Part shown: positions 1-38,700 of the stretch, piece by piece
How positions within the stretch are numbered: the first letter of the stretch is position 1
Layout of the letters: every line of letters starts with the position of its first letter
Source: Thermorudis peleae
Lineage (GTDB): Bacteria; Chloroflexota; Chloroflexia; Thermomicrobiales; Thermomicrobiaceae
DNA: 64,000 bases
Direction: 5' to 3'
Assembly (NCBI RefSeq): GCF_000744775.1
Contig: NZ_JQMP01000004.1
Location: forward strand, 1-64,000
Program-made: the position numbers and the translations under genes
Notes under the pieces: model-generated
The model's input: only the letters and a program-made list of their open reading frames with translations
Told to the model about the DNA's origin: nothing
The model's database searches: none

Positions 1-637
1 AAGTCAGCTGGAGTTTCTGCGGCAAGGATGGAAGTAAAGATAACATGGCGGTGTCCTGTTGATAGCACGCTAACAAAGGAGGCGGCATTTTCTGGTCAAA
101 GAGTTCCCCTGCGTGAGGTCTCCTCTCGTGGTCGAGCATCTGCCGGTCAGCGAACTACCTGCGACATGGGAGTGTCTAGCGCAAGCACGCAACACGGCAA
201 AGGTAATCGCCGTTATCCTCGATCAGTTGCGCATGGCGAGCACCACGCGTAAGCACTGGTATCTATAAGGAAACCCTTGACGGATTCCCCCGCTTTCGTG
301 CCTCGCTAAACGCAAGAGACCAGGCTGTCTACCGCGCGATTCTGCATGGAGATCACGTCGGTGCACCGTCATCAACATCTCGTTAGCGCAAGCCACGCGC
401 GTTTGATCAGCGTGTCGCACGCTCGATCTGCCAATAGCTCTCACTGAACTCGAACCGGAATTGGTGGATCGATGGACAAGCAGTCGGGAACAGGTTAGCA
501 CCCGTGCCCTACCCTCTGAAGCGGCAGTAGCATTAACCGGTTGGAGGACACGTACAGCTGAGTGCAACCAAATCGATGGGAGTTGAGCTTCGTCCCGCTA
601 TCCCCGATACTTACTCGTGACGACAAAGGGGGAACAC
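1..637. other. No intact gene; possible decayed coding remnant
   Basis: I find no convincing complete gene here. Two open stretches in different frames follow each other on the plus strand. One ends at a TAA at 266-268 and reads protein-like just before it (ending MASTTRKHWYL). The other overlaps it, continues with YKETLDGFPRFRASLNA and stops at 384-386. Together they could be a frameshifted remnant of one gene, but I do not recognise the family. The strand and reality of this remnant are inferences from amino-acid character alone. Confidence 0.3.
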
Positions 638-835
638 ATGACAGCACGGCTGACGCACGAAAACGAGATCCACGAGTTGACCCCTGAGGAGGCCCGGGAA
701 CTCTTCGAACGCGAGGCGCAACGGCGCCTGCACATGAGTGGTGATGAGTTCAAGCGGCGCTGGCAAGCCGGTGAACTTGACCCGGAAGACCCCAATGTCC
801 GGATGGTCGCGCTGGTGCTGCCGCTCGCGCACTAG
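638..835 (+). CDS. Small hypothetical protein, possible antitoxin-like partner
   Basis: A 65-residue, charged, mostly helical protein. The ATG at 638 is preceded by a strong ribosome binding site (AAGGGGGA at about 626-632), which favours it over the upstream in-frame start at 617. Its core (TPEEARELFEREAQRRL, then MSGDEFKRRW) resembles small proteins of unknown function that are often encoded beside a second small gene. The next gene starts 6 bp after its stop, so the two are probably co-transcribed. An antitoxin or partner-protein role is inferred only from size, charge and pairing. No DNA-binding motif is obvious. Confidence 0.6.
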   Translation: MTARLTHENEIHELTPEEARELFEREAQRRLHMSGDEFKRRWQAGELDPEDPNVRMVALVLPLAH

Positions 836-841
836 CACACG

Positions 842-1378
842 ATGGCCGGCAAGACCCGCCGTGAAGCGATCGCTGCCTACCTCGAGCCGCTCAAGGAAAC
901 CCTGGCGTGTGTTTGCCCCCAGCGCTACCGGCACGTTGCCTATCACGGGCCTGATCCAGCCGGTCTCTCCGTGCTCGTTGTGCATCGCCTTGAGCCGGTG
1001 CCGCTGCGCCGGCAAGACGGGTCGCGCCTGTGGTTTGAGGTCAGGCAACTGTTCCGCGTCGTCGAGACGGAAAGATTGCGCGGCCCGTACACCGTGGCAA
1101 CGGCCGCCTACCTCTACCAGATCTCCTACGACGACGGACGAGAACTCCTTGCATTCCACTGGCATCCCCATGGTCAAGGGAAGAGAACGACGCCGCACGT
1201 GCATATCGGGCCGGCGGTGGAGCAAGTAGCGGAACGTGTCCGTGAACTCCACATCCCCACGGGATACGTCTCGCTTGAAGCAGTCGTCCGGTTTCTGATC
1301 GATGGGCTCAGCGTCGCTCCCCAGCGCTTTGACTGGAGCGAGGTGCTTGCACGGAACGAGGCACGACACAACCAGTAG
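842..1378 (+). CDS. Hypothetical protein with His-rich motifs, possible toxin-like partner
   Basis: A 178-residue protein that I cannot assign to a characterised family. Residues 85-125 form the most distinctive part: a YLYQISYDDGRELLAF strand region, HWHPH at 106-110 and TPHVH around 117-121. These histidines could be catalytic or metal-binding. The pattern loosely recalls DUF6516-type proteins, which are encoded with small partners, but I could not compare sequences. It starts 6 bp after the upstream 65-residue gene, and the pair lies next to a mobile-element-like replication module. A toxin role is therefore a reasonable but unproven inference. Confidence 0.6.
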   Translation: MAGKTRREAIAAYLEPLKETLACVCPQRYRHVAYHGPDPAGLSVLVVHRLEPVPLRRQDGSRLWFEVRQLFRVVETERLRGPYTVATAAYLYQISYDDGRELLAFHWHPHGQGKRTTPHVHIGPAVEQVAERVRELHIPTGYVSLEAVVRFLIDGLSVAPQRFDWSEVLARNEARHNQ

Positions 1379-1704: not shown

Positions 1705-2259
1705 TCACGGGAAGCGCGTGCCCATGATGACGGGTTGGCCCGCAGTCTTTCCCACTCGTTGAACACGCGCAGTACCCCTCACGTTGTATGGCATCATTCC
1801 CCCTTCCCCAGGACCAACAGTGGTCACCGTGGGGGGCAGCGTGCTTTTTCTTTTTTCTTCGTTGGAAAAAACATGAACGATACCGCTCGGTGGTGCCGTG
1901 CACGGCGCGCAATGAGCAGCGCTTTTTTTAAAGCCGGAAAAATAGCATGCACCTGCAACTGAAAAGCCGCAGGTCCATGCACCAAGGGTGCGCATGGGCC
2001 TCAGACGCCCCGCTCCCTGCAAGGCCGCAACGATTTCATCCCAATCCGACGGCCGCCAGACACGAACGATGATGCCAGGTACTTGTTGGAGCACGGCAAG
2101 CCAGGCCTCTTGCGCCGGCGAAAGCTTGCCACGTTCAGTCTTGAGTTCGGTCAGGATCAACGGCCGGCCTGGCTTGGCGAGCACCAAATCTGGGAAGCCC
2201 GCTGGCGAGCGCACCGAAATCCAGGTATGATAGACCTGCCAGCCGAGCAACCGACGCAT
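1705..2259 (-). CDS. VRR-NUC domain nuclease with unusual C-terminal extension
   Basis: The first 85 residues match the VRR-NUC fold of the PD-(D/E)xK nuclease superfamily found in phages and mobile elements. Visible are GFPDLVL at 21-27 (the PD), the E-x-K of ELK at 38-40, the conserved Gln at 50 in KLSPAQ, and the closing VWRPSDWDEI at 67-76. Such proteins usually end soon after this point. Here the frame continues about 100 more residues of Cys-, Pro- and Gly-rich sequence to a stop at 1705, which looks unlike a domain and may be read-through into foreign DNA. It follows the DUF1917-like gene by 12 bp. A role in element replication or resolution is inferred. Confidence 0.75.
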   Translation of the reverse strand: MRRLLGWQVYHTWISVRSPAGFPDLVLAKPGRPLILTELKTERGKLSPAQEAWLAVLQQVPGIIVRVWRPSDWDEIVAALQGAGRLRPMRTLGAWTCGFSVAGACYFSGFKKSAAHCAPCTAPPSGIVHVFSNEEKRKSTLPPTVTTVGPGEGGMMPYNVRGTARVQRVGKTAGQPVIMGTRFP

Positions 2260-2271
2260 GAGGGAACCTCA

Positions 2272-2697
2272 TCAAAACCTCGACGAAACCTCGACGCTTC
2301 TGGGTGGGGTGTGCCGCCGCCACAGCTCCCGCGGCGTCGTCTCCCGGGCACCCGGGTCGAGCCAGCGCCGCCGGCCGTGCCAGTCATAACAACTGATGGG
2401 CCGAACGAAGCCGAGCCGGAAGCGGAGCACCCGGCGGATGCGCAAGACGGCATCACGATCACCGACATCCGCAACGTAGATCCTGAGTTCGTAGCGCCGG
2501 CCGCCGGCGATCGGCTTCAGGCGGGCAGCTGGGCCAAGGTCACCGGCACGCACGGCCGCGCTCACCTTGTCCCAGACACGGCCGGCATACGATGGCCGCA
2601 GGATCGAACGCCAGAAGCCGGCCTGCTGGGGATTGAGCCGCTCGACGCCGGGAGCGTAGCACCACTCGCTCGGTGTTCTTGTCCGGGTTGTCATCAT
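2272..2697 (-). CDS. DUF1917-like (putative phosphothreonine-lyase fold) protein
   Basis: A 141-residue protein starting 3 bp after the ATPase stop, with AGGAGG upstream of tandem ATGs at 2697 and 2694. The middle of the protein fits the DUF1917 pattern as I know it: a W-x-K-I/V block (GRVWDKVSAAV), a G-x-LG block (GDLGPAARLKP), an I-Y-V-x-D-x-x-D strand (IYVADVGDRDAVLRI) and a closing aromatic-plus-basic block (YDWHGRRRW). The biochemical activity of this family in bacteria is not established. The position inside a primase-helicase-nuclease operon suggests an element-encoded accessory protein. The family call is from pattern memory only. Confidence 0.55.
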   Translation of the reverse strand: MMTTRTRTPSEWCYAPGVERLNPQQAGFWRSILRPSYAGRVWDKVSAAVRAGDLGPAARLKPIAGGRRYELRIYVADVGDRDAVLRIRRVLRFRLGFVRPISCYDWHGRRRWLDPGARETTPRELWRRHTPPRSVEVSSRF

Positions 2698-2700
2698 CCG

Positions 2701-4620
2701 TCAGCCTCCTTTCTGTTCGCTCAACCATCCGCGTCGGCGCGCCTCGTCCGGTGAGGCGATGACGCTTTCAGGCGTCATCGTGCCCGATGGCCAAACCACC
2801 AGCTGACCCTGTCTGGCCAGCCACTCCAGTACAGGCTGCAGCGTCGCAAACGGCACCCCAACGACTTCAGCCAGGCGATACGCATAAACACCGCCTAGCC
2901 GGCGGAGTCGTATGCATACCTGCTCAGCAATGGCGGCATCGAACATCATTGTGTGCATTTGGGGAGCAACACCGCAACGGTCGGCGATTTCCGCGTCAGC
3001 ATCGCCAAAACACCGTTGCTCCCCGGGGCGCAACGGTGGCGCAACGCTCGCAACGCTTCCCTCGTCCGGGGGCGATGGGCGTTGCGGGTGTTGCGGGGGT
3101 GTTGCTCCCCCGGGCGCAACGGTGTTTTCCGCGTCGTGATCGCAATCTCCGGCGAGCGTTGCGCCGTTGCGCTCAGAAGTGAGCAGCAACGTTTCTGGCT
3201 CGGGCAACGCCGTCACCGGCGGGGGCAATGGCTCCCCCGGCCGCAGTTTGGCTGGCCGGCCTCGCCCCGTTTCCAGGTTGACGAGGTGGCCAAGTTCGAC
3301 CGCGCGCCGGACATGCCGGCTGATGCGCGATTTATCGCGGCCGAGCAGGCGCGCAAGCTGCGCAAGCGACACCGTCTCTTCTGGATCCTGACACAGCTCG
3401 GCCACGGCCGTGACAACCTCGCGCACCCCCGGCGTGATCCCGCCGGAAACGATGACACCATAGAGCGGCGCCACGAGCTGATAGACGGCGCGGTAGTCTT
3501 CCAGCGTGGCGATGATCCGGCCGTGGGTATCGCGCTCGCGTTGCCGCTGGTGGAGGAGCGCATGGGCGCAGATCAGGTTCAAGAGTTGGGGAAAGTCGCG
3601 CCGCATCCGCACGAGATCCGCCGACACGCGTTCGGCGAGCCGTTCGGCATAGGGGATCGTGACGCTGCGCGCTCCCTCGCGCTCAAGCCAACGTTGCAAC
3701 GCATGCCACGGCGCGAGATCCGGCGGTTCGGGAGCGCTTCCGTTGGCAGCCCGGCCAATGGCGAGGAGCACGGCGCGGGTGGCCGCGGGATCTTCCGGCA
3801 CGCTCACGGCGAGCAACCGCGTGGCCAGCTCATCTTCGACGCCTTTCGTTGTCGTCGTGACGAGTCCCGTCGGCCCCGCAAGCTCGATCGTGCGGCTCAC
3901 GAGCCGGCCGCTGTCGTCTTTCTCGACAGTCGGATAGCGCACGCGGCCTTCCCAGGTCACCGAGCGCATGATCGCCGCGCCAATGCCGTCGCGGTGCAGG
4001 CCAGCCGCCTCGGTGACGAGCAGCATCCGGTGGCTGAGATTGCCACCCAGGTAGAGCAGGCCCCGCTCGGACATGCCGGTGAGGGCAACGATCGCGTCGG
4101 CCGGGAAGAGCTGGGCAACCGTCGAGATGAGCAGCGTCTTGCCCGCACCACTGGGGCCCTCGACAAGCAGGTTCACCGGCCGCTCAAGCAGGCGGCTCGT
4201 CAGCACGAGGTACACCAGCGCCGGTAGGTGCTCGCCGCCGGGTGGTGGCATCCAGCCGAGCGCGGCGACGGTCTCCGTGACCCGGGTGAGCAGCCGGGGA
4301 TCATCCAAAAGCGCCAGGGCCGCGGCGAGCGCTTCGCCGTCAAGTGTCTCATCTGCCTCGCTCGCGCCGGGTGGTGGCCCGGCGAGGTACTCCAGCAAGC
4401 GTTCGCGCACGATGAGCAAGTCGTCGGCCAGTGCGGGGTTGCCGGCGCGTTCGGCGAAGCGGCGGCGATCCCGTTCACGATCGAGGTTAAGCCGATCGGT
4501 GGCGAGCAGCTGGTTGTCGACAAGTGCGGAGACGGTGGCCCGCAGGCCATCGCGCAGGACGGGCTCTTCAACCAGGTAACGCACACCATGGACGATGATT
4601 TCGAAGGCATCACCGCGCAT
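2701..4620 (-). CDS. AAA+/helicase-like replication ATPase with winged-helix C-terminus
   Basis: A 639-residue protein. The start at 4620 (ATG) follows GGAGGTG by 5 nt and overlaps the primase stop by 11 bp, so the upstream in-frame ATG at 4737 is not needed. A Walker A GPSGAGKT lies at residues 155-162. A Walker B-like hydrophobic strand (RMLLVTEAAG) and a polar region typical of helicase-like ATPases follow. Around residues 400-460 a winged-helix segment (QLARLLGRDKSRISRHVRR) suggests DNA contact. A low-complexity Pro/Gly/Ala linker precedes a second small HTH-like domain near the C-terminus. Coupling to the prim-pol gene suggests it is the replicative helicase or loader of the element. It is not assigned to a named subfamily. 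Confidence 0.75.
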   Translation of the reverse strand: MRGDAFEIIVHGVRYLVEEPVLRDGLRATVSALVDNQLLATDRLNLDRERDRRRFAERAGNPALADDLLIVRERLLEYLAGPPPGASEADETLDGEALAAALALLDDPRLLTRVTETVAALGWMPPPGGEHLPALVYLVLTSRLLERPVNLLVEGPSGAGKTLLISTVAQLFPADAIVALTGMSERGLLYLGGNLSHRMLLVTEAAGLHRDGIGAAIMRSVTWEGRVRYPTVEKDDSGRLVSRTIELAGPTGLVTTTTKGVEDELATRLLAVSVPEDPAATRAVLLAIGRAANGSAPEPPDLAPWHALQRWLEREGARSVTIPYAERLAERVSADLVRMRRDFPQLLNLICAHALLHQRQRERDTHGRIIATLEDYRAVYQLVAPLYGVIVSGGITPGVREVVTAVAELCQDPEETVSLAQLARLLGRDKSRISRHVRRAVELGHLVNLETGRGRPAKLRPGEPLPPPVTALPEPETLLLTSERNGATLAGDCDHDAENTVAPGGATPPQHPQRPSPPDEGSVASVAPPLRPGEQRCFGDADAEIADRCGVAPQMHTMMFDAAIAEQVCIRLRRLGGVYAYRLAEVVGVPFATLQPVLEWLARQGQLVVWPSGTMTPESVIASPDEARRRGWLSEQKGG

Positions 4621-5536
4621 CGGCCACCTCCAGGCGGATGATGCGCCGGCGGCTGCGAGGGACTGGTGCGTCCGGCGGACGTGCGGGTGCGTAGCGCGCG
4701 ACGGAACGCGCGATCTTAGCGAGCTCGCGCTCGTCAAGTGGCGGCCGGCAGCGTGAGGCGTTCAGAATCCGCAGGCACGCCAGGATTTCTGGCTCGGTGC
4801 AGCCGCGCCGGCGGAGCGTGCCGGCAAGCGAGGTGAGCCAGCGGTTGCGTTCCCCTTCGCCGATCGTCGGTGGGAGTTCCTTGCTGCTCTGGCCAGGATG
4901 CCGGCGCGCCTGGTGGGCCAGCGGCAGCAGCCAGTCCGGCAACGGTGCGAGCGGCAGGTCGGCAATATGGGCGCCCGTGTCCCAGAAGTAGCGCCCGGCC
5001 GCGCTCCGGCTCGGCGGGAGAACAACCTGCGCACCAGCCGCTTTGAGTTCGAGTCCTGGCGCAAGCGTCACGGTGGGCACATCTGGTGGCGCAATAAAGT
5101 GGTAGTGGGCTCCCCCACCGCCAGTTAGGCCGGTTGGCGTTGGCGGCAGCGGCTCGTGCGTGGCCTCGAGATCGGCGAGTGCCTCGTCACCGCCATGGCG
5201 CGGATCGACGTCGAGCACAACATGGCCACCGCCGAGCGCAACGCCGACGTTGGCCAGTGGCCACCGCTGCCACCAGGCCGCGATCGTGGCGGGGTCGCGC
5301 GTCGCTCGTCGTGGCCAGTCGGCGAGAATCGGATGTTTCCCCGCGGAGCGGCATGACGGATGACCACAGGAGCAGTGGCCAGCATCGTCCACCCAGTGGA
5401 GCGGGATGAGCGGCCAGCCGCGTTGCACGACATACCAGGCGGCAGCCTGCGCGAGCGTGGCGGTGGTATCCTTTTCATAACCACCAGCGACAACCCGCTG
5501 CACCGCCGCCCCGGGAACCGGCCGGGGCGGGTTCAT
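4610..5536 (-). CDS. Bifunctional DNA primase/polymerase (prim-pol) protein
   Basis: A 308-residue archaeo-eukaryotic primase-type protein. The start at 5536 overlaps the upstream HTH gene as ATGA, and the in-frame region further upstream is that gene read in another frame. Visible are the N-terminal pattern YVVQRGWPLIPLH, a Cys/His segment (CSCGHPSC), the motif I aspartates in VVLDVDPRHGG, the motif II His in GGGGAHYHF and a third block near VVLPPSRS. Residues after about 220 (GERNRWLTSLAGTLRRRG onwards) match the PriCT-1 primase C-terminal region. The family primes and extends DNA in plasmids and integrative elements. Together with the adjacent ATPase it forms a compact replication unit. 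Confidence 0.88.
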   Translation of the reverse strand: MNPPRPVPGAAVQRVVAGGYEKDTTATLAQAAAWYVVQRGWPLIPLHWVDDAGHCSCGHPSCRSAGKHPILADWPRRATRDPATIAAWWQRWPLANVGVALGGGHVVLDVDPRHGGDEALADLEATHEPLPPTPTGLTGGGGAHYHFIAPPDVPTVTLAPGLELKAAGAQVVLPPSRSAAGRYFWDTGAHIADLPLAPLPDWLLPLAHQARRHPGQSSKELPPTIGEGERNRWLTSLAGTLRRRGCTEPEILACLRILNASRCRPPLDERELAKIARSVARYAPARPPDAPVPRSRRRIIRLEVADAR

Positions 5537-5775
5537 CGTTCGACCTCCAGCCGCGCCCAGATTTCCTCTTCCGTCAGCCCCAAGGCTGCCGCGAGTGCTT
5601 TCGTTGGTACCCGGTAGCGACGGCCGCCGACGCGGACGATCGGAACGCCGGGGGCAAGTTCGTTTTGCCACCGAGCAAGCTCGTAGGCTAACGTGCGGCC
5701 GACGCCTAACAACCGGGCAGCCTGGGTCACGCTGACTGTTGCTGGTCGGGGTGTTGTGGTGTATGGTGTTGCCAC
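5533..5775 (-). CDS. Excisionase-like / MerR-type helix-turn-helix protein
   Basis: An 80-residue protein with one predicted winged HTH. SVTQAARLLGVGRTLAYELAR forms the recognition unit, and VRVGGRRYRVPTKALAAALG is the typical wing-and-helix ending of excisionase family (HTH_17) proteins. The ATG at 5775 has AAAGGAGG 8-9 nt upstream. It is the first gene of the primase operon (ATGA overlap with prim-pol) and lies directly below a perfect inverted repeat. It is therefore a candidate for both excision and operon control. Regulation by this protein is inferred from position. Confidence 0.85.
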   Translation of the reverse strand: MATPYTTTPRPATVSVTQAARLLGVGRTLAYELARWQNELAPGVPIVRVGGRRYRVPTKALAAALGLTEEEIWARLEVER

Positions 5776-5790
5776 GGTGCGTCCTCCTTT

Positions 5791-5819
5791 CGCTGATCGA
5801 TCCTCTCCATCGATCAGCG
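5791..5819. promoter_or_regulatory. Perfect 11-bp inverted repeat, candidate operator or 5'-UTR hairpin
   Basis: CGCTGATCGAT at 5791-5801 and ATCGATCAGCG at 5809-5819 are exact reverse complements separated by 7 nt. The repeat lies just upstream of the ribosome binding site of the HTH gene and overlaps the proposed -10 element, as an autoregulatory operator would. It could instead act as an RNA hairpin in the leader. Confidence 0.65.
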
Positions 5820-5845
5820 TACGGACGCACCTAGCTTTACGTCAA
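5816..5845 (-). promoter_or_regulatory. Putative promoter of the primase operon
   Basis: On the minus strand TTGACG (5845-5840) is followed after 18 nt by TACGCT (5821-5816). The -35 is good and the -10 is weak. The -10 overlaps the outer arm of the inverted repeat at 5791-5819, and the -35 abuts the GGCTTGAT repeats, which makes a controlled promoter likely. Confidence 0.4.
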
Positions 5846-5909
5846 GGCTTGATTTTGGCGTGATTTCGGCTTGATAGAGGCTTGATGCTCGCGCGAGCAC
5901 CATCAAGCC
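5846..5909. repeat. Iteron-like GGCTTGAT repeats (three direct, one inverted)
   Basis: GGCTTGAT occurs at 5846-5853, 5868-5875 and 5879-5886, and its reverse complement ATCAAGCC at 5902-5909. The last two copies bracket a GC-rich near-palindrome (CTCGCGCGAG). The cluster lies between the unknown 382-residue gene and the operon start. Such arrays serve as replication origins, excisionase sites or operators. The sequence does not say which. Confidence 0.7.
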
Positions 5910-5919
5910 TCCGCGCTGC

Positions 5920-7068
5920 TCAGCGCTGCCAGGCGCGGCGTCCGGCTTCGGAGAGCACGGGGTCGGGGGCGGGGAGAAATGGTTTGAGCCAGGCGTACTT
6001 CGGATCGGTGTGGAACTCCCAGAAATACCGCCGCACCGACGACTCGGCGACTGTTCCGTCGAGCTGGCGGATGACGTCCTTCAGCGTCAACCCCTTCAAG
6101 AAGAGCTCGGCAACCATATGTTTGGCGCCGGAGAGTTTTTGGAGGTGCTCTGTGACCTCGTCCCGCGGGGAGCGGAGATAGAGCGCGAGTAGCCACGCTT
6201 CTGCTGCGCGGTCGTCATGCTCGATGCGCACGGGGAAAAGGACCCGCGCATCCCCTTCCCGGAAGAGCCGAACCAGCCGGTCGAGGAGACAATGGACGGG
6301 GAGAAACGTGTAGCAGTCGATTGTCGTGCGCCCGTGATATTCCGCGATCCGGAGAGCGAGACCACTCTGAACGGGTTGTGGGATATGCGTGATCGGTGCG
6401 ACCTCGGGTCGGGTGACGGCTGCCATGGTCGGGACAACCCACCAGTTGCCGGTGGGTAAAGAGACCCAGCGCGGTGAAGCCAGAAGATCCCAGACCCAGT
6501 AGTCGGCCTTGTCGATGGTGACCACGTACGGCAAATCACCGTCGCCGACGCGTACTCCCCAGGCATCGGTCAGGGAAACACCATACCCTCTAGACCGTTT
6601 CCGCGGGAAGACCGTGGCACGGAGCCAGGACTCGACCGCGGCGCTCGGCGCATCAACAATCACTGACCAGGCTCGGGGGAGAAAGCCGCCTGCGGCCAGA
6701 TGGTTGATAAACGTTAGCGCCTGTGGGGTGGGGGGCTGGGCTGGAAGGGGTTGCAGGGCGGTGGCGAGCGCGAGACTCTTGGAGGTACTGGACCACGGGG
6801 AGCGGAAGAACTGCAGCGCGTGGAGCGCCCAGCGTCCGTCGCCTTCCCAGACCGCCTGAAGCTGGACCACTGTGGTATCGTCCGCATCCCGGTAGAGTTG
6901 TCCCCGATACGCAGCCGCGCCGAGACCGCACTCTTCCCGTGCCATGTCGCAGACGAGTCCCGCCTCCTGCAACACTTCTTCGATCTGCGCCACGAGGTTC
7001 TCTGTGTGTGGGGTCGCGCACCAACCGACGATACGCCAGTCGAAAAGGAACCAGTGTCCTATACCCAT
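5920..7068 (-). CDS. Unknown protein next to the attachment site
   Basis: A 382-residue protein that I do not recognise. The ATG at 7068 follows AAGGAGT by about 8 nt. In-frame sequence upstream to 7176 lacks such a site. The protein is rich in Trp, has no membrane segment, and ends with an HTH-like stretch (LTLKDVIRQLDG, then SSVRRYFWEFH). I looked for the tyrosine recombinase R...HxxR...Y set and for serine recombinase motifs and found neither. It sits where an integrase gene normally lies, between the attachment site and the replication genes. A role in integration, replication initiation or regulation is possible but unsupported beyond position. Confidence 0.7.
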   Translation of the reverse strand: MGIGHWFLFDWRIVGWCATPHTENLVAQIEEVLQEAGLVCDMAREECGLGAAAYRGQLYRDADDTTVVQLQAVWEGDGRWALHALQFFRSPWSSTSKSLALATALQPLPAQPPTPQALTFINHLAAGGFLPRAWSVIVDAPSAAVESWLRATVFPRKRSRGYGVSLTDAWGVRVGDGDLPYVVTIDKADYWVWDLLASPRWVSLPTGNWWVVPTMAAVTRPEVAPITHIPQPVQSGLALRIAEYHGRTTIDCYTFLPVHCLLDRLVRLFREGDARVLFPVRIEHDDRAAEAWLLALYLRSPRDEVTEHLQKLSGAKHMVAELFLKGLTLKDVIRQLDGTVAESSVRRYFWEFHTDPKYAWLKPFLPAPDPVLSEAGRRAWQR

Positions 7069-7197
7069 CGCACACACTCCTTCCGTCGAGTCAGTCAGCA
7101 ATCCAGTTAGCAACCACGCCAGCACTGGCCGGACAGCGCAGCACTCCAACGATACCACAGGCGCATACGAACGCACAGAACGGATACACTAGCACGC

Positions 7198-7211
7198 ACC
7201 AACACGTTGGT
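7198..7211. repeat. Short inverted repeat beside the tRNA fragment
   Basis: ACCAAC (7198-7203) and GTTGGT (7206-7211) form a 6-bp inverted repeat with a 2-nt centre, 7 bp left of the point where tRNA-Sec similarity begins. It could be a recombinase core or arm site. It is too short to be sure. Confidence 0.35.
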
Positions 7212-7218
7212 CGGCAAA

Positions 7219-7283
7219 CTTCAAAATCGCTGGGCGTCGGTCGTCCCGGCGCTGGTGGGTTCGACTCCCATCCGCCCTCGCCA
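7219..7283 (+). pseudogene. 3' half of a selenocysteine tRNA gene (attachment-site remnant)
   Basis: The segment reads as anticodon loop CTTCAAA (anticodon TCA, 7219-7225), a 3' anticodon-stem half ATCGC, a long variable arm (GGGCG pairs with CGTCC), T arm GTGGG-TTCGACT-CCCAT, an 8-nt acceptor half CCGCCCTC, discriminator G and encoded CCA at 7281-7283. The UCA anticodon, long variable arm and 8-nt acceptor arm are features of tRNA-Sec. The expected 5' acceptor half (GAGGGCGG) and D arm are absent upstream, and the sequence before the loop (GCAAA) does not pair with ATCGC. It is therefore a truncated gene, best explained as a site-specific integration scar. Confidence 0.72.
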
Positions 7284-7935
7284 GCGTCTCACCCCTGGCA
7301 TCACGCGGATTTGTTCCGCTGCTTTCTGGTCGCTGTCTTTTCCAAAGATGCTGGGGCACACAAAACAGCCAAGAGGCAATCTCAACAGCAACGGGCACCA
7401 GTCCGAACCTGTGCCAGAACACGCCGGAAAACTCGTTTCCTCGTTGAGTCAAGCAAGCAGAGCTGGGCATAGACATGGCAGAATTTCCCTGTAGACAAGA
7501 TTGCACTGTCGGTCAGCTCACCAGAGTAGACCGGGGTAGCTTTACGTCCCTTCAGCCAGAGGCAACTCCTAGCACTCAAAGTCGATGACAGACACGGCCT
7601 TCTCCACTTCGTTGAGCCTACGATCAGTGTAGCAGCACAGTGTACAGTGATTACTTCATCACACCTCTCTGGTGAATTCAGAGTGAAGACAGTCAAACAC
7701 GAACGTCATGCCAACGAACTAGGCTGAACATATACCACTATATAGGAAAAATCCTCGATGTGTCATTGCAGCCGAAACGGCAAAATTTCTTCTTTCTCCG
7801 CATGAAGAGGCAGAGCAGTTTCAATATGATCACGCAGGCGGCACACTATCTGTTTACGGTTGCCAGGATGGGCAAGGAACGATAGAATCGCCTCGGGTAG
7901 GCGTTGTGTAATCTGCCGGGAAGTAGGTGAAGTAC
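7284..7935. other. No gene seen; upstream region of peptide transporter
   Basis: No credible coding frame occurs on either strand. The right half is more AT-rich than its surroundings (for example around 7710-7750) and probably contains the promoter of the peptide-binding protein gene. I could not pick out a convincing -35/-10 pair. Confidence 0.5.
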
Positions 7936-9678
7936 ATGCGGACACGGGAAGAGATTTACGGGGCGCTGTTGGAGGAATGGTTAAGCAAAGGGCTCGATCG
8001 TCGGCAGTTTCTCCGGCTAGTCGCCATGGGTGCGAGCGCAACGTCGCTGGCCCTGATACTAGCCGCCTGTGGCGGCTCGAAGACCGGCTCGGTCAGCACG
8101 CCAGGCCAGCCAACCCGCCCAGCCAGTTCACCGACACCAGCTGGCACACCCACGCCAATCGCTCAGACAATTGGCAAGGCAGCGATGACGCCAAATCCAA
8201 TGCCGACCTCGGCGCCGTTTGTCAATAAGCCATTCCTCATCGCCCTCAACGTCGAGCCTGACTCACTCGACGTCCATGACTCGTTCTTCAACGCCTCACT
8301 CGGCGTTGACAAGTGCATCTATGAGGGCTTAGTTGGACTCGATGACAAGATGCGTATCGTCAACCAGTTGGCTGAATCGTGGGAACCTTCGGCCGACGGG
8401 AAAGAATTCACCTTCCGGCTGCGCAAAGGAGTGACTTTCCATGACGGCACGCCGTTCAACGCCCAGGCAGTGAAAGCCAACTTCGATCGGGTTCTGAACG
8501 AGACCGGGCTGAAGCGCCACCAGTACTTCGCAGCCTGGCTTGACCATGTTGAAGTGATCGATGACGGCACCGTCAAACTGGTAGCCAAGTCACCATTTGC
8601 GGCGATGGTTGCAACCATTGCCCATCCAGCCGGAGGGATTGTTAGCCCAGCAGCAGTCCAAAAGTACGGCAAGGACTTTGGCATCCATCCAGTCGGTACT
8701 GGGCCGTTCCGCTTCGTCGAATGGGTGCGCGGCGATCATATTACCCTTGAAGCCAACCCGAACTACTGGAACAAGCCAACTGGCCCCTCCGTGCCCAAGC
8801 TGACAATCAAAGGGATTTCTGAGCCAAGTTCGTTGGGCATTGCGGCCCAATCCGGCGAGGCCCAATTCGCTGGACCGCTGAACGCGCCTCAAGCTGTTCA
8901 GTTGCAAAAGGCCCAAGGAATCACCGTGCAGCAGAATCCAAGCATCTCGGTCTATTGGGTCACACTCAACAATGCCCGCAAGCCGTTTGATGACAAGCGA
9001 GTGCGTCAGGCACTCAACTACGCCGTTAACAAAGAAGAAGTTCTCAAGGCCGCTGATCTTGGCTACGGGCGGATTATGGATTCGCCGATTGGCGACTTGG
9101 TCTACGGCTACCACAAAGTCGGCACGTACGAGTACAACCCTGAGAAGGCCAAGCAATTGCTCGCTGAGGCTGGCTATGCCAATGGCTTCTCAGCCACGTT
9201 GTGGTGTACGGCCCCGAACAAAGACCGAGCAGTGGCAATCCAGGGACAGCTCGCAAAGATCGGCGTTACCGTTGAGGTCGTGCAAATGGAATCGGCTGCG
9301 CTGAACGCCGAACTGGCCAAACCCGTCGATCAATCAAAGACACAGATGGTCATTTCCAACTGGTCGCCATCAACAGGCGATGCCGACTGGGGACTGCGGC
9401 CAATCTATGCCAAGGCTTCGTGGCCACCGGCTGGTGCCAATTACGCGTTCTACTTCAACCAGCAGGTTGACGACTTGATCCAAGAGGGTCTGCGCGACGT
9501 CGATCCCGACCAACGGCTGGCAGCCTATGCCAAAGCCCAGGAACTGATCTGGGATGACGCTCCGCACATCTTTCTCTACGCACCAACCTATTTCGCAGCA
9601 ATCAACAATAATGCTGGCGGCGTGGTTGTCCAGCCGGATGGTATCGTCTTCATGCGGACAGCTTTCTGGAAGTCCTAA
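7936..9678 (+). CDS. Peptide ABC transporter substrate-binding lipoprotein (SBP family 5)
   Basis: A 580-residue extracytoplasmic binding protein. The ATG at 7936 has AGGTGA 5 nt upstream, so the GTG at 7927 is less likely. The N-terminus has a twin-arginine motif (DRRQFLRLV), a hydrophobic stretch and the lipobox LAAC, followed by a Thr/Pro/Ser-rich linker. This indicates a Tat-exported, lipid-anchored protein. Family 5 features include the early LNVEPDSLDVHD region, FTFRLRKGVTFHDGTPFNA, and VRQALNYAVNKEEVL. It heads a plus-strand cluster with two permeases and an M55 peptidase, so peptides or dipeptides are the likely ligands. The substrate cannot be read from sequence. Confidence 0.93.
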   Translation: MRTREEIYGALLEEWLSKGLDRRQFLRLVAMGASATSLALILAACGGSKTGSVSTPGQPTRPASSPTPAGTPTPIAQTIGKAAMTPNPMPTSAPFVNKPFLIALNVEPDSLDVHDSFFNASLGVDKCIYEGLVGLDDKMRIVNQLAESWEPSADGKEFTFRLRKGVTFHDGTPFNAQAVKANFDRVLNETGLKRHQYFAAWLDHVEVIDDGTVKLVAKSPFAAMVATIAHPAGGIVSPAAVQKYGKDFGIHPVGTGPFRFVEWVRGDHITLEANPNYWNKPTGPSVPKLTIKGISEPSSLGIAAQSGEAQFAGPLNAPQAVQLQKAQGITVQQNPSISVYWVTLNNARKPFDDKRVRQALNYAVNKEEVLKAADLGYGRIMDSPIGDLVYGYHKVGTYEYNPEKAKQLLAEAGYANGFSATLWCTAPNKDRAVAIQGQLAKIGVTVEVVQMESAALNAELAKPVDQSKTQMVISNWSPSTGDADWGLRPIYAKASWPPAGANYAFYFNQQVDDLIQEGLRDVDPDQRLAAYAKAQELIWDDAPHIFLYAPTYFAAINNNAGGVVVQPDGIVFMRTAFWKS

Positions 9679-9705
9679 GCTGACCGCAAGAAAGCGGGCA
9701 GACTC

Positions 9706-10626
9706 ATGCTTGCGTATGTCCTGCGGCGACTGGCAGCGTTAATACCAACGCTGATTGGAGTCTCGATTGTCGTCTTTCTCCTGCTGCGGCTGGTGCCCGG
9801 CGACCCAGCTCGCCAGGCACTGGGCCCAGAGGCTACGGCCGAGCAGGTAGCCCTGCTCCGCAAACAGTGGAAGCTCGATGAACCATTGCCTGTGCAGTAC
9901 ATCTACTGGGTGAAGCGGATGCTCCAGGGCGATCTTGGCCGCTCAACAATCTCGCGCGTACCTGTCACTCAAGAGATTGCAACCCGCCTGCCGGCGACAC
10001 TCGAACTGACGCTTGTAAGCATGGTATTTGCAATCATTCTGGGAATTGGACTAGGAGTACTCGGGGCAGTGCGGCATAACACGGCTCTCGACCGCTTCAG
10101 TACAGTGCTCGCGCTGTTGGGAGTATGCACGCCATCCTTCTGGCTTGGTCTCATGCTGCTCCTCATCTTTTCTGTCAAGCTCCAGTGGTTGCCGCCGTTC
10201 GGCAAGGGAGGCATTACGCATCTTATCCTGCCCGGGCTGACGCTTGGCGCAGGGGCTGCCGCGGTGATTGCTCGAGTAACGCGCACGAGCATGCTTGAAG
10301 TGTTAAACGAGGACTACGTGCGGACAGCTCGAGCCAAGGGGCTCGCTCCCTGGCCTGTCCTGATTCGTCACGCTCTCCCCAACGCGCTTATCCCGATTAT
10401 CACAATTGTTGGGCTCCAGTTCGGCGGGCTGCTGGCCGGCGCAACGATCACCGAGACCATTTTCGCCTACCCGGGCATCGGTCTCTTGCTGATCAACGCG
10501 ATCAACAATCGTGACTTTCCGATTGTGCAAGCGGCGCTCTTGTTATTCACGCTGCAATTTGTGCTGGTCAACCTGCTGGTCGACTTGCTCTATGCTCGAG
10601 TCGATCCACGAATAACCTATCAGTAA
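9706..10626 (+). CDS. Peptide ABC transporter permease (DppB type)
   Basis: A 306-residue inner-membrane permease with the typical DppB/OppB N-terminus (YVLRRLAALIPTLIGVSIVVF), the PGDPAR motif at the start of the periplasmic loop, and about six membrane segments. The cytoplasmic EAA loop that contacts the ATPase is visible as DYVRTARAKGL followed by RHALPNALIP. It lies 27 bp after the binding-protein gene and 10 bp before the DppC-type gene. It forms the channel with that partner. Confidence 0.93.
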   Translation: MLAYVLRRLAALIPTLIGVSIVVFLLLRLVPGDPARQALGPEATAEQVALLRKQWKLDEPLPVQYIYWVKRMLQGDLGRSTISRVPVTQEIATRLPATLELTLVSMVFAIILGIGLGVLGAVRHNTALDRFSTVLALLGVCTPSFWLGLMLLLIFSVKLQWLPPFGKGGITHLILPGLTLGAGAAAVIARVTRTSMLEVLNEDYVRTARAKGLAPWPVLIRHALPNALIPIITIVGLQFGGLLAGATITETIFAYPGIGLLLINAINNRDFPIVQAALLLFTLQFVLVNLLVDLLYARVDPRITYQ

Positions 10627-14872: not shown

Positions 14873-15862
14873 GTGACGTGGGCACATGTGCGACGTGGAC
14901 TGGCCCTCGCAGGGCTGCTGGTGTTGCTCAGTCTGCCGTTCTGGGGCAACGCCTACATCCTCCGTATCGCAACCGGCATTTTTCTCTGGGCTGGGCTCGC
15001 CTGCGCCTGGAACATCGTCGGGGGGTACGCGGGCTACATCAGCTTCGGGCATTCCGCGTTCTTCGGCATCGGCGCCTATGCGGCTGGCATCCTGATGGGT
15101 GAACGGTTTGGCCTGCCCTTCGCGGGCGCCCTCGTGGTTGGCGTCGCCGCGGCCGGAGTCGTCGCCGCGTTGATCGGGTGGCCGACCCTGCGGTTGCGGG
15201 GAGCTTACTTTGCGATCGCGACCTGGGCCTTTGCCGAGATGGTGCTGCAACTTGCCAATGTGCTGCGCATTACCGGCGGCACAGCCGGGCTGACACTGCC
15301 CCCGCTCCTCGACGAGCGGTTGTTTTACTTCCTCATGCTCGGCGGTGCAGTGCTAACCTATGGCCTCTGCTTCGTGCTGCTCGAACGCTCGCGCTTTGGC
15401 TACCGCCTGAAGGCTATCCGCGACAACGAAATTGCAGCCGAGACGTTGGGTATCGACACCACCCGGGTGAAACTCCAGGCGTTTGTGCTCAGCGCAGCAA
15501 TCACCGCAGCTTTTGGCGCCATCTATGCCTACTGGATCACCTTTATCAACCCAACCAGCGTGCTCGCCGGGGACATTACCGACCAGATGGTCGTCATGGC
15601 CTTGCTCGGCGGCTTGGGGCACCTGTGGGGCCCAGCGATCGGAGCAGCAAGCATGTACCTGGTGAATCGCCTGTTCTGGAGCCTGTGGGGGAATACCACG
15701 GCTTACATTGTCGTGCTTGGGGTCGTCATCGCGCTGGTCGTCTTGTTCCTGCCCGACGGCCTGGTAAGCCTCTGGCCGCGGACACGGCGGCTCCAGGTGC
15801 TGCGCGCTCTGGGCCCGCACCCGCAACAGGAACGGCCCACAGTCGCGGAGGAGCAGCGATGA
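14873..15862 (+). CDS. livM: Branched-chain amino-acid ABC transporter permease (LivM family)
   Basis: A 329-residue membrane protein. The GTG start at 14873 follows AGGAGG by 5 nt. LivM signatures include AWNIVGGYAGYISFGHSAFFG near residues 45-65, LRLRGAYFAIATWAFAEM, and the coupling loop IRDNEIAAETLGIDTTRVK. MALLGGLGHLWGPAIGA is the conserved late loop. Its stop overlaps the livG start as ATGA, implying translational coupling. Confidence 0.92.
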   Translation: MTWAHVRRGLALAGLLVLLSLPFWGNAYILRIATGIFLWAGLACAWNIVGGYAGYISFGHSAFFGIGAYAAGILMGERFGLPFAGALVVGVAAAGVVAALIGWPTLRLRGAYFAIATWAFAEMVLQLANVLRITGGTAGLTLPPLLDERLFYFLMLGGAVLTYGLCFVLLERSRFGYRLKAIRDNEIAAETLGIDTTRVKLQAFVLSAAITAAFGAIYAYWITFINPTSVLAGDITDQMVVMALLGGLGHLWGPAIGAASMYLVNRLFWSLWGNTTAYIVVLGVVIALVVLFLPDGLVSLWPRTRRLQVLRALGPHPQQERPTVAEEQR

Positions 15863-17348: not shown

Positions 17349-17394
17349 TTCCCGGAATCCCGTTCCCTCATCCCAAGGGAACGGGATTCGGGAA
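17349..17394. repeat. Palindrome 1 of the GGGAACGGGA array
   Basis: The arm starting at 17349 (TTCCCGGAATCCCGTTCCCT) pairs with 17376-17394, with a single-G bulge and a 7-nt loop CATCCCA. It is the first of four large stem-loops after livF. There is no T-run behind it, so it is not a canonical intrinsic terminator, although it could stop transcripts or protect their 3' ends. Confidence 0.75.
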
Positions 17395-17432
17395 GCAGGA
17401 TAGGCTCCGCGTGTCATACTGGCTTTCCTCCC

Positions 17433-17458
17433 GTTCCCGATCCCTAAGGAACGGGAAC
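17433..17458. repeat. Palindrome 2 of the array
   Basis: GTTCCCGATCC at 17433-17443 pairs with GGAACGGGAAC at 17448-17458 with one mismatch and a CTAA loop. It shares the GTTCCC core and the CTAA loop with palindrome 4. Confidence 0.7.
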
Positions 17459-17471
17459 AGGAACCTGGCCC

Positions 17472-17528
17472 CTTCCTGATTCCCGATTCCCGTTCCCTAT
17501 AAGGGAACGGGAATCGGGAATCAGGAAG
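17472..17528. repeat. Palindrome 3: perfect 27-bp stem with 3-nt loop
   Basis: Positions 17472-17498 and 17502-17528 are exact reverse complements, separated only by ATA. The arm contains CTGATTCCCGATTCCCGTTC. The right arm has three evenly spaced GGG runs followed by GG, so it might also form a G-quadruplex as a single strand. A perfect palindrome of this length is rarely kept without function or recent mobility. Confidence 0.85.
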
Positions 17529-17630
17529 CAGGAAGCACCGTAAGGGAACCAGTGAGGGATTCCCGGACCGGTTCCCGGCGGGAATGCCCGGGAGGAATCT
17601 CGGGAAGACGGTCACGGCAAGCATCAGTCC

Positions 17631-17674
17631 ATTCCTCCCGTTCCCGTTCCCTAAGGAATGGGAACGGGAGGAAT
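17631..17674. repeat. Palindrome 4 of the array
   Basis: The 20-nt arm 17631-17650 pairs with 17655-17674 with one mismatch and the loop CTAA (17651-17654). The core CTCCCGTTCCC is shared with palindrome 2. Less regular copies of the same words continue to about 17760. Confidence 0.75.
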
Positions 17675-18241
17675 CAGGAATAGCACGTGCGGGTCTCCTG
17701 CCGTTCCTCCCGGCCATCCCCGGCGGGAAGGAATCGGGAACGGCCTCGCCGCGTCGCCATGCGCCGTTGCGTGTGGCATCCCCGCGAGAACGGGAATCCA
17801 GGAATTGGCCGCCGGAGCGACCAGGCCGACGTCCCCAGGATCAGCAGCCGCGAGGCAACGCGACAGACGCGACACACCCTCACGGCTGGCACCCACTCCG
17901 CTCCGTCGCCTCCTGCCTCCTGCCAGGCATGTCCGCTGCACAGGAGGCTCCGGGGCGCGAGGGCAGAGCAAGACGCGGCAGCCCCCCGCTGACACACCCC
18001 ACCTAGGCGGGGCGCACACCGCAGCGCGCCACGCAAGCGCCAACGCCCCCTGTCCCGTCAGCTCGGGCGCACCCTCAACGCGCCCCACCTGCGCTGGCCC
18101 CCCGCGTAGTCTGCGACGAGGCAACACCCACGCAGGAGCATACGCGTGTTCCAGCACGTGCCGTCAGCCCTACCTGACCGGCAGCCTGAGAACACGCCGG
18201 CATGGGGCGTGGGAGCCGCGCCGGCGAACAAAGCCGCGAAC
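17675..18241. other. No gene seen; degenerate palindrome words then GC-rich spacer
   Basis: Sequence up to about 17760 contains further partial GGGAACGG / CCGTTCC words, for example around 17690-17745. Beyond that I see only GC-rich sequence with overlapping open frames that lack ribosome binding sites. No frame here is convincing. Confidence 0.45.
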
Positions 18242-35553: not shown

Positions 35554-35614
35554 AGGAGCGGCTTCAGGCTCGATGCCCGACCGCTTCGTCGCGCTGGCTC
35601 TTCGGAATGGCAGT

Positions 35615-35714
35615 GAAGTCCGCTGGCAGATGAGCTACTGGTCAGCATCGCCTCCTGACTTTCCGATCGCCATAATGGTCAAGAAGTCCGCTGGCTTATG
35701 AGCCAGCGGACTTC
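35615..35714. repeat. Perfect 14-bp hairpin and an upstream half copy
   Basis: GAAGTCCGCTGGCT (35683-35696) and AGCCAGCGGACTTC (35701-35714) form a perfect stem with a TATG loop between the convergent PHP and dnaE genes. A second GAAGTCCGCTGGC at 35615-35627 is followed by AGATGAGCT, a decayed copy of the loop and right arm. The stem could end transcription from both sides, although no T-run follows on either strand. Confidence 0.75.
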
Positions 35715-35745
35715 GTAGAGCGCGCATGAGAACGTCGAAGATGAA

Positions 35746-38700
35746 TCATCCTTTAGCAACGCGCGTCGTTTGCTCCGTTGGTTCACGATAACGCTGGATC
35801 TGCTCTACCCAGACCTCGTCTGGGCCAAGAAGCTGCTGCAGAGAATGCTGAAATTCTGGCGTCCAGGCAACACGAACTCCGGCCTCAAGAACGACCTCAC
35901 TATTTTTATTCTTGCTTCCACGGAGGGGAACGTGAATATACAACGTCTCATCACCGCTGAAGAGGGTGCATGCATCCCGCACTTGATGCATGGTAGCGAT
36001 ATCCTGGGCAAGTGATCCAGTCGCCGGCAAACGGATATGGACAATCGTGACTGTTTCAGGTTCTGGTGGTGTTGTTGCCGCCTCTTCGGGATTGAGCAAG
36101 CGGAGCGACAGACCGACCAATTGAAGCTGGTCATTGCGCATATCAACCCGAGCGGTAACACGGACCACCTTATCCTCCGTCAGCTCGGCTTTGACTTCAT
36201 CGTACAGATCAGGGAAGAGGACGAGTTCTATTGACCCTGAACGGTCTTCGAGCTGACAAACTGCCATGACGCGATCAGTCCGTGTCGCTCGACGCCGAAT
36301 GCTCGTCACGAGGGCAATCAGTTCAACAGTTTCACCAGCAAGTTCTTCATCAATTTGGGCAATCTGGGTGAGACCTTCGGCGCGGAGTTGCTCAGCAAAG
36401 CTATCCAACGGATGCGCACTGAAATAGACACCCATTAACTCTCGCTCCCAGGATAGCCAGGAAACGTTGACTTTCCGTGTATCTGCTCGTTGCTCGTCAA
36501 GCTGCTGTACCACAGGATCCTGGCCGCCTGGTAAGACCAACAAGTCAAACCCCATCTGCCCCTGTCGCCGGGCACGCTGCTGGCGTTGCGCAGCACTGAT
36601 TGCACTATCCAGCCGTGCAAGTAAAAGATCACGGTCGCCGAGTGAGTCGCAGGCGCCTGCGCGCACCAAGCTCTCAATCGTTCGTCGATTCACCACCGAC
36701 CAATCAACGGAGTGACAAAGCTCTTCAAAACTGGCGAACTGTTGTCCTGGCTGAGCATTGCGCGCGGCAATAATCGCCTCAACAGCTGCCTCACCGACGT
36801 TTTTGATCATGGCTAATCCAAAACGAATACCCCGTTGGCCATTGGGCAGCTCTTCGACGACGAAATTCGCTTGACTGCGGTTAATGTCCGGCGGCAGGAC
36901 AGGAATCCCAAGTTTTTCACATTCTGCCATCGCCGCAGCAATGCGTTTTACCGTACCGGCCGGATGGCTCGGGGCCAGACGCAACAATGCTGTCATGTAT
37001 TCGACTGGATAATTCGCTTTGAGATACGCAGTCTGATAGGAAAGATGGGCATAGCTAACCGCGTGGGCCTTGTTGAAAGCATAGCCAGCAAACGGCTCGA
37101 TCAACTCGAAGATCCGCTCGGCGTCTTCACGGCTATATCCCTTGGCGAGGGCACCGGAGATGAAGCGTTGTCGTTGCTCGGCCATGACCTCTGGAATCTT
37201 TTTGCCCATCGCCTTGCGCATGATGTCGGCTTCACCGAGCGTGTAGCCAGCGAACTTGCGGGCAATAAGCAAGACTTGATCCTGATAGACAATGACGCCA
37301 TAGGTTTCGTCAAGAATCTCCGCCAGGTCCTCGTGCGGATAGTTAATCGGCTCAAGTCCATGCTTGGCCCGGAGATACGTCGGAATATGCTGCATTGGGC
37401 CAGGCCGATAGAGTGCAACCATTGCTGCGAGTTCAGCGATTGACTGGGGGCGGAGTTCGCGGATGTACTTGCGCATGCCGGCGCTTTCAAGCTGGAAGAC
37501 GCCAAACGTCTCCCCCTTGCCGAGCAGGTCATAGGTTTTCGGATCGTTGTCAGGAAACTGTTTGGGGTCAAGTTCTCGGCCATGGAGTTCTTTGATGATT
37601 TTGACCGCCTCGCCAAGAATCGTCAGGTTAGCGAGACCGAGAAAATCCATCTTGAGCAGACCGATCTCGGCAACCGTCTCCATTGGCCACTGGGTTGTTG
37701 GGAGTGATCCTTCTTCACCCCGGGCCGGCCGCTGGAGGGGTACGTGCTCAACAAGGGGATCAGCCGAAATCACGACGCCGGCGGCGTGGGTTCCGGCATG
37801 GCGAGCAATCCCTTCCAGCTTGCGCGCATTATCAATCAGCTCACGCGACGCTGGATCGTGCTCATACAAATGGCGGAGTTCAGGGCTTTCAGCTAATGCT
37901 CGGTCAAGCGTCATGTGGGGGGTTGACGGAATCAGGCGGGCGATCCGGTCGACATCGCTATAGGCCCATCCCATCGCCCGTCCAACGTCGCGAATCGCAG
38001 CCTTGGCACCCATGGTCCCAAAGGTAATGATCTGCGCGACGTGTTCAGCGCCATATTTCGTTGCGACGTAATCGATCATTTCGGAGCGGCGGTTATCCGC
38101 AAAATCCATGTCAATATCAGGCATCTCCCGCCGTTCCGGATTGAGGAAACGCTCAAAGACCAACCGATTGCTCAGCGGATCGATGTCAGTAATACCAAGA
38201 GCGTAGAGGACGATACTCGCCGCAGCACTCCCGCGCACGCCGAAGGGGATTTGTTGCTTCCGAGCAAATTCGGCGAAGTCGCGAACAAGCAGGATGTAAT
38301 TCGCAAAACCAGTTTCGGTAATAACCTGCAGCTCATATTCAAGACGCTGACGCACTGATTCGGTGATTTCGGGATAGCGTCGCTGAATGCCCTCCCAGGC
38401 CAGCTTCCGCAGATACTCTTCAGGCGTCATCCCTTCAGGCACGCCAGGATTCGGCAAATGGAGACGGCCGAATTCCAGCGTGACGTCACAGCGCTCAGCA
38501 AGTCGCACGGTATTCTCGAGTGCTTCTGGCAACGCGCCAAATTGCTGCCACATTAATGCTGGCGGCTTGAAGTAGAGCTGGTCGGTATCCATGCGCATAC
38601 GCTTGGAATCAGACACGGTCGTGTTCGTTTGGATACAAACCAGCAGATCCTGAATGGCAGCATCTTCTTGGTTCAAGTAGTGGACGTCGTTCGTGACAAC

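Follow-up and report, generated by a model that had tools for sequence, protein, structure and literature searches.

Results

Genes and features of the locus

The window, by which we mean the whole stretch of 64,000 nucleotides that was analysed, covers positions 1 to 64,000 of contig C4 of Thermorudis peleae, whose 2.93-Mb genome is assembled in four contigs. Near its left end lies a group of replication genes, followed by a copy of a tRNA 3' sequence. The features considered here are listed below in window coordinates, unless contig C3 or locus L011 is named.

617–1378, plus strand: two small ORFs of 72 and 178 aa within the island, a possible pair by arrangement, no family match of note
1705–2259, minus strand: partial VRR-NUC nuclease ORF (PF08774, 5.9e-07, over cut-off)
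2272–2697, minus strand: 141-aa ORF with a marginal PF08939 (Bles03) match, frame near its end uncertain between contigs
2701–4620, minus strand: MCM-like AAA+ ATPase/helicase with winged HTH, ORF open from 4737
2968–3180, no strand assigned: intragenic iteron array and palindrome (arms 3007–3056 and 3079–3128), candidate replication origin
4610–5536, minus strand: prim-pol (PF09250, E 3.9e-37; PriCT_1, 2.2e-17)
5533–5775, minus strand: xis-like HTH protein (HTH_17, 8.6e-07, over cut-off)
5920–7176, minus strand: p418, 418-aa ORF, likely start ATG 7068, no family match
7094–7113, plus strand: candidate integrase arm-type sites, two copies 12 bp apart, −126/−114 from the core
7219–7288, plus strand: attR core, 70-bp exact copy of the 3' part of selC (tRNA-Sec) plus 5 nt
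C3:1479262–1479331 (L011 9263–9332): second core copy, an exact direct repeat, inside intact selC
L011 9231–9327: tRNA-Sec (selC), the intact gene at attL
L011 9389–9408: partner arm-type pair on the other arm, +55/+67 from the core
C3:1479352–1480578: tyrosine integrase, 408 aa (PF00589, 1.2e-28; phrog_1, 1.4e-81)

The gene set recognised in a preliminary description of this DNA, prim-pol, AAA+ ATPase and VRR-NUC, is present by profile matches and an MCM-like fold, the nuclease in partial form, and the set adjoins an attachment site as described there. The xis-like gene overlaps with the start of prim-pol, and prim-pol in turn with that of the ATPase gene. The prim-pol ATG at 5536 overlaps the xis-like stop, from which overlap this start was deduced, and the ATPase ATG at 4620 overlaps the prim-pol stop; prim-pol followed by helicase is also the order seen in ICETh2-like elements. 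The xis-like protein, over the cut-off of HTH_17, stays under that of TIGR01764 (2.2e-05).

Pfam gives the ATPase no placement. Its AF2 model (mean pLDDT 68) aligns with MCM helicases over 281 residues (VIA-align Z 21.1, rmsd 4.0), and the fold, as modelled, is MCM-like. A PDB sequence search with the ATPase profile returned nothing significant, though the fold comparison matched MCM. The plasmid relatives of this protein are the ATPase halves of CHC2/toprim primases, and such fusions occur in some related genomes. No relatives emerged from IMG/VR scans with the ATPase and with p418, and p418 had no match among plasmid records. A fold search with the AF2 model of p418 was given up, the model being too poor (pLDDT 38). 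The VRR-NUC ORF matches profile positions 61–111 only, with the first helix of the domain missing, and its frame differs among the three overlapping contigs; a close homologue (81%) is present in a second element on contig C1.

The integrase lies beyond the contig end

Where is the integrase of this module? As the preliminary description had observed, the window contains neither a tyrosine nor a serine recombinase: in profile searches the sole PF00589 match on C4 is found at 419 kb, and PF00239 matches are confined to C1. In a contig comparison, the final 2,856 bp of C3 and the initial 2,852 bp of C4 agree at 99.8%, and contig C2 (13 kb) bridges the C3 end and the C4 start, then runs into a fold-back copy of its own sequence. 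This overlap and the bridge therefore identify the sequence to the left of window position 1 as the end of C3. Extension onto C3 leads to the other attachment site, within intact selC, and to a tyrosine integrase about 23 kb left of position 1, whose gene ends 25 bases past selC and which has all of the catalytic residues R, K, HxxR, H and Y. Of the two explanations offered earlier, an integrase to the left of position 1 is thus what we find, and the other, in which a protein so far unknown as a recombinase would act, gives way to a conventional phage-type enzyme beside the left attachment site, the very result that the preliminary description had named as its refutation. The apparent lack of an integrase comes from where the contig ends.

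Intact selC and its displaced 3' fragment have the same orientation, as in a tRNA-gene island. The att cores enclose 31,738 bp, and the replication module (1705–7283), which had been taken for a compact element, is the right-hand end of this 31.7-kb island. SelB is encoded in the host genome. No clean empty site was seen in relatives, where the genes to the right of attR lack synteny. Could the C3–C4 join be an assembly artefact, such that integrase and module do not belong to one element? The join is assembly-based; C2 ends in a fold-back copy and single-base indels distinguish the overlapping contigs. We nevertheless hold an artefact to be very improbable. The overlap spans 2.85 kb at 99.8%, a further contig bridges it, and the segment so joined is enclosed by direct repeats of tRNA 3' sequence and carries an integrase at one of its ends, as is standard for an island (PMC4383910).

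Further evidence comes from the vicinity of the cores. Phage-type integrases have arm-type sites arranged as paired repeats that flank the core. Repeats of the G[TC]TAGCAA type form one such pair on either side, with no second pair in either stretch (64 kb and 20 kb). A selC element in another genome of the same family, G121, has pairs of the GCTAGCAA type, also at exactly −126/−114, and on the other arm at +81/+93. We infer from this arrangement that the integrase binds at these candidate sites. A flanking 10-mer beside the core, ACGCACCAAC, was judged weaker as an arm site than the paired repeats.

The G121 element is 9.2 kb in size and encodes an integrase 61% and a xis-like protein 67% identical to those studied here, a p418 homologue (39%), a prim-pol fused to a long C-terminal part, and a family A DNA polymerase. 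It also bears on the proposal that an unrecognised recombinase within 1705–7283, for example p418, mobilises the module, and that the selC integrase stems from another element. Indeed, p418 has no family match, adjoins attR, and has its homologue at the matching place in the G121 element. Yet a complete tyrosine integrase occupies the opposite att copy, the same integrase, xis and p418 are found together in just 9.2 kb in G121, the arm-site pairs are common to both elements, and the confident part of the p418 model is confined to a C-terminal bundle of HTH-like helices. We consider this proposal extremely improbable. By sequence, the element has two att copies, intact selC, an integrase, arm repeats, a xis-like gene, a prim-pol/MCM-like helicase operon and a palindrome in the helicase gene.

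Cargo of the island and occupancy of selC

Genes for Gp49-like and XRE proteins, a toxin-antitoxin-like pair, lie beside the integrase gene. Next come an ABC sugar transporter, Gfo/Idh dehydrogenases, ThuA, a TPP enzyme, a PfkB kinase, KduI/IolB and a DeoR regulator, a set suggestive of an inositol-type catabolic operon. These are followed by a DUF499 ATPase with Fn3-type matches, DUF3780, a DUF1156 N6-MTase and a PLD/HKD-SNF2 helicase. The set of DUF499, DUF3780, DUF1156 and PLD-SNF2 helicase has been published as Type-2 BR defence (PMC12839542); the island locus has the same genes and nothing notably different, with a match to NF042962 (859 bits) below the curated cut-off of 1200. We regard it as cargo, outside the main finding.

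The sole match in the genome to PF01580, the FtsK/SpoIIIE transfer protein, is at C3:877603, outside the element, and profile searches of the main island ORFs revealed no terminase, portal, capsid or packaging genes. The element would therefore depend on passive spread, a helper phage or mobilisation.

Within the family, 19 of 21 genomes have a selC match, and five carry a displaced 3' fragment (the studied genome, G121, G123, G119 and G124). In G119 and G123 some 55 kb separate selC from the fragment, and an integrase adjoins selC. We read these insertions as prophages, because head-protein genes are present in both and a terminase in G119. The site is a hotspot common to islands and prophages. 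Might the element itself be a phage satellite or a decayed prophage, and not a plasmid-like integrative element? The two prophages at selC, the occurrence of prim-pols in phages and the transfer gene not found in the element would agree with such a descent. We think it unlikely: capsid, terminase and packaging genes were not recognised in the island, the ATPase has zero matches among 50,697 phage records, and the island integrase is only about 30% identical to those of the selC prophages. A plasmid-like integrative element is the reading we retain.

A close relative of the module is found in bacterium HR28 (BEIE01000004; this is G119), outside selC, with prim-pol 82%, ATPase 83% and xis 55% identical and a tyrosine integrase within 8 kb. 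A search for its ends by exact direct repeats of at least 12 bp gave one 14-mer only, inside coding sequence. Which genes accompany ATPase loci of this kind, a question posed in the preliminary description, has a partial answer: an integrase domain lies within 6 kb in HR28, in G099 and at one G151 locus, and elsewhere the contig is short or no such domain is nearby.

The element follows the plan of ICETh2-like elements

The module had been put forward as the best candidate in the window for an undescribed system. Its plan is, in fact, a known one, that of ICETh2-like elements, and is shared by the prim-pol AICEs. In the excerpted account of ICETh2 from Thermus thermophilus HB27 (PMC7693054), this element likewise occupies a tRNA gene, carries a tyrosine integrase and, where the island has a xis-like gene, an excisionase at one end and a prim-pol followed by a separate helicase, and is flanked by a direct repeat that is the tRNA 3' end; some ICETh2-type members have a toxin-antitoxin. 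The two helicases can be likened by gene kind and order only. ICETh2 differs in its site (tRNA-Val, here selC) and in size (11.3 kb, here 31.7 kb). The excerpted account reports neither DUF499 defence nor a sugar operon and does not mention an intragenic array, whereas the island has all three.

Prim-pol AICEs of actinomycetes share the tyrosine integrase and prim-pol replication module but need an FtsK/SpoIIIE transfer protein (PMC3218068). The island has none within the element, and we rejected AICE membership on this ground. Integrated bacterial mobile elements with direct repeats, AEP primases and MCM-like helicases are a further match (PMC5862659), and the same work defines the PrimPol-PV1 supergroup. 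The question of the missing integrase has an ordinary answer, and a mobile element of a thermophilic chloroflexote lineage now has its exact ends, its att sites and its candidate arm sites located. What merits closer attention is the candidate origin within the helicase gene.

An iteron array inside the helicase gene

Codons 520–590, approximately, of the 678-aa ATPase ORF encode a linker of low AF2 confidence. Here the word aCCGTTGCGc is repeated in both orientations and in all codon phases, and 50-nt arms form a palindrome around 22 nt. Repeated 8-mers reach a load of 42, whereas the highest value among 200 codon shuffles that preserve the protein is 15. Folding of the single strand gives a z of −7.1 for the array, −4.9 for that of HR28 and −5.4 for that of G099, compared to −1.0 and +0.6 for two control stretches of the same gene. 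When the studied genome is compared with HR28, the array keeps the same synonymous codon at 56 of 62 positions (90%), and codons 45–440 do so at 219 of 339 (65%; Fisher p 2e-5). A recombined patch of DNA could mimic such conservation; constraint would be the simpler explanation. By shuffles and synonymous conservation alike, the repeats exceed what the protein needs. Low complexity of the protein, which we considered as their source, was ruled out by the synonymous shuffles and the mixed codon phases.

Arrays beyond all shuffles occur at the matching gene position in seven homologues (HR28, G099, two G151 loci, G100, G413 and G422), and a weak one in G478. The words vary among homologues: CGCAACACC, CCGTTGCA, GCGCAACCG, CGGTTGCA, GGGTGTGCA, GGTTGAA and AGCGTTGCAG. 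Most close relatives that possess the linker have the array, built of other words. Three homologues, G151c, G138 and G152, are without it, and the distant homologues besides G413 and G422 (clear) and G478 (weak) have none, or GC-rich low complexity only. Among the repeat windows of a locus, that of the array ranks first in HR28, G099, both G151 loci and G100; in the studied 64-kb window it ranks second.

What is the array for? We propose that it is the replication origin of the element; the simplest reading is an origin bound by the winged helix of the ATPase itself. Array, conservation and position are observed, and binding, melting and priming are presumed. The array could instead be an operator through which the gene regulates itself, a site used in segregation, or an expansion of repeats that is neutral. 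Iteron-like arrays are also found as operators and in partition, disordered linkers tolerate insertions, and the role of the array is deduced from position and presumed binding. These alternatives appear somewhat unlikely to us, in view of repeats on both strands and in all codon phases, palindromes in three genomes, and synonymous sites kept between genera. The intragenic arrays of pSK41 rep and lambda O are, moreover, known origins: in pSK41 rep, initiator-bound repeats lie mid-gene and the residues encoded by ori form a linker (PMC5703833), and in lambda O such repeats lie in the middle of the initiator gene (PMC3985674). Those initiators are RepA_N and lambda O proteins, whereas that of the island would be an MCM-like helicase. 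In pRN1, likewise a prim-pol/helicase replicon, the origin lies downstream of the replication gene and not inside it, in the form of a stem-loop of some 100 nt (PMC4234260). Weighing against the origin that we favour are the several homologues without an array and, from the excerpted ICETh2 account, a prim-pol dispensable for replication of the element, to which the helicase may contribute (PMC7693054). Because of this latter observation, helicase and array are the safer part of the model.

Proposed mechanism

Int, on paired arm sites, would recombine attL with attR, and the Xis-like protein would shift recombination toward excision. Copying of the excised circle by the prim-pol/helicase pair would start at the origin, where the winged HTH of the helicase would bind the iterons that its own gene carries in the linker (window about 2968–3180). 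Integration would restore selC. That the module is the right-hand part of a 31.7-kb integrative element in selC of a thermophilic chloroflexote, with this entire mechanism and the intragenic origin, we consider likely.

Does the arrangement extend beyond this element? In the same genome, another element, located on C1 and equipped with a large serine recombinase, encodes a 974-aa primase-helicase with an array, ACCGTCCGCA, in its C-terminal part. We lean slightly towards a general form of the proposal, in which mobile MCM-like helicases of Chloroflexota form a family that carries the origin inside its own gene, as an iteron palindrome in the linker beside the winged helix, and in which one or more further primase-helicases of the genome do the same. 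The repeat word would change between elements along with the divergence of the cognate HTH, and this could keep related elements compatible in one cell. A limited literature search found no description of an intragenic origin in such helicases, which is no proof of novelty. The candidate makes the start of replication in prim-pol/MCM-like elements a testable question, and linker repeat load of a replication gene beyond synonymous shuffles provides a computational route to origins in such elements. By this measure, a repeat cluster in the PolA gene of the G121 element is borderline, being equalled by 1 of 100 shuffles.

A further small element, on contig C1

The genome of T. peleae carries, on contig C1, a second small element:

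C1:93565-103047 (L012, part of C1, 565-10047): small element with serine recombinase, primase-helicase and VRR-NUC

Its recombinase is a large serine recombinase, and its primase-helicase of 974 aa contains an intragenic repeat array of its own (word ACCGTCCGCA). The VRR-NUC protein is 81% identical to that of the window, and this nuclease seems to be common to elements with different recombinases. Traces of further elements are present on contig C3, namely an integrase fragment (C3:1019713-1019889) with 83% identity to the integrase of the selC island and another prim-pol (C3:201022-201480) within an 877-aa frame.

Reading frames and contig C2

Some of the reading frames considered here are uncertain because the contigs disagree by single-base indels. 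Contig C2, which is probably a chimeric long read, folds back on itself (7191-10010 versus 13034-10217; L009, which is C2, 7191-13034).

Cargo of the selC island and prophages in selC of relatives

The island carries a defence locus, with two small ORFs between this locus and the prim-pol module:

L010 4184-13746: Type-2 BR defence locus (DUF499/DUF3780/DUF1156/PLD-helicase), cargo of the selC island
Window 617-1378, plus strand: two adjacent small ORFs of 72 and 178 aa

Neither ORF has a notable family match; a toxin-antitoxin pair is possible. In two related genomes, selC is occupied by a prophage whose integrase adjoins the gene:

L076-L078 (G123): prophage in selC, about 55 kb
L079-L081 (G119, bacterium HR28): prophage in selC, about 55 kb

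The G119 prophage also encodes a functionally unassigned protein of 2,214 aa.

Repeat clusters

In the sister element of G121, a ATGTAACC repeat cluster (L055, a G121 stretch, 14881-15180) lies where the PolA gene encodes the N-terminal part of its protein; this cluster is borderline when compared with synonymous shuffles. Within the 64-kb window, the highest 8-mer repeat density belongs to a strong cluster of inverted repeats of the GGGAACGGGA type at 17349-17729, and positions 35581-35880 rank third with an 8-mer repeat load of 21.
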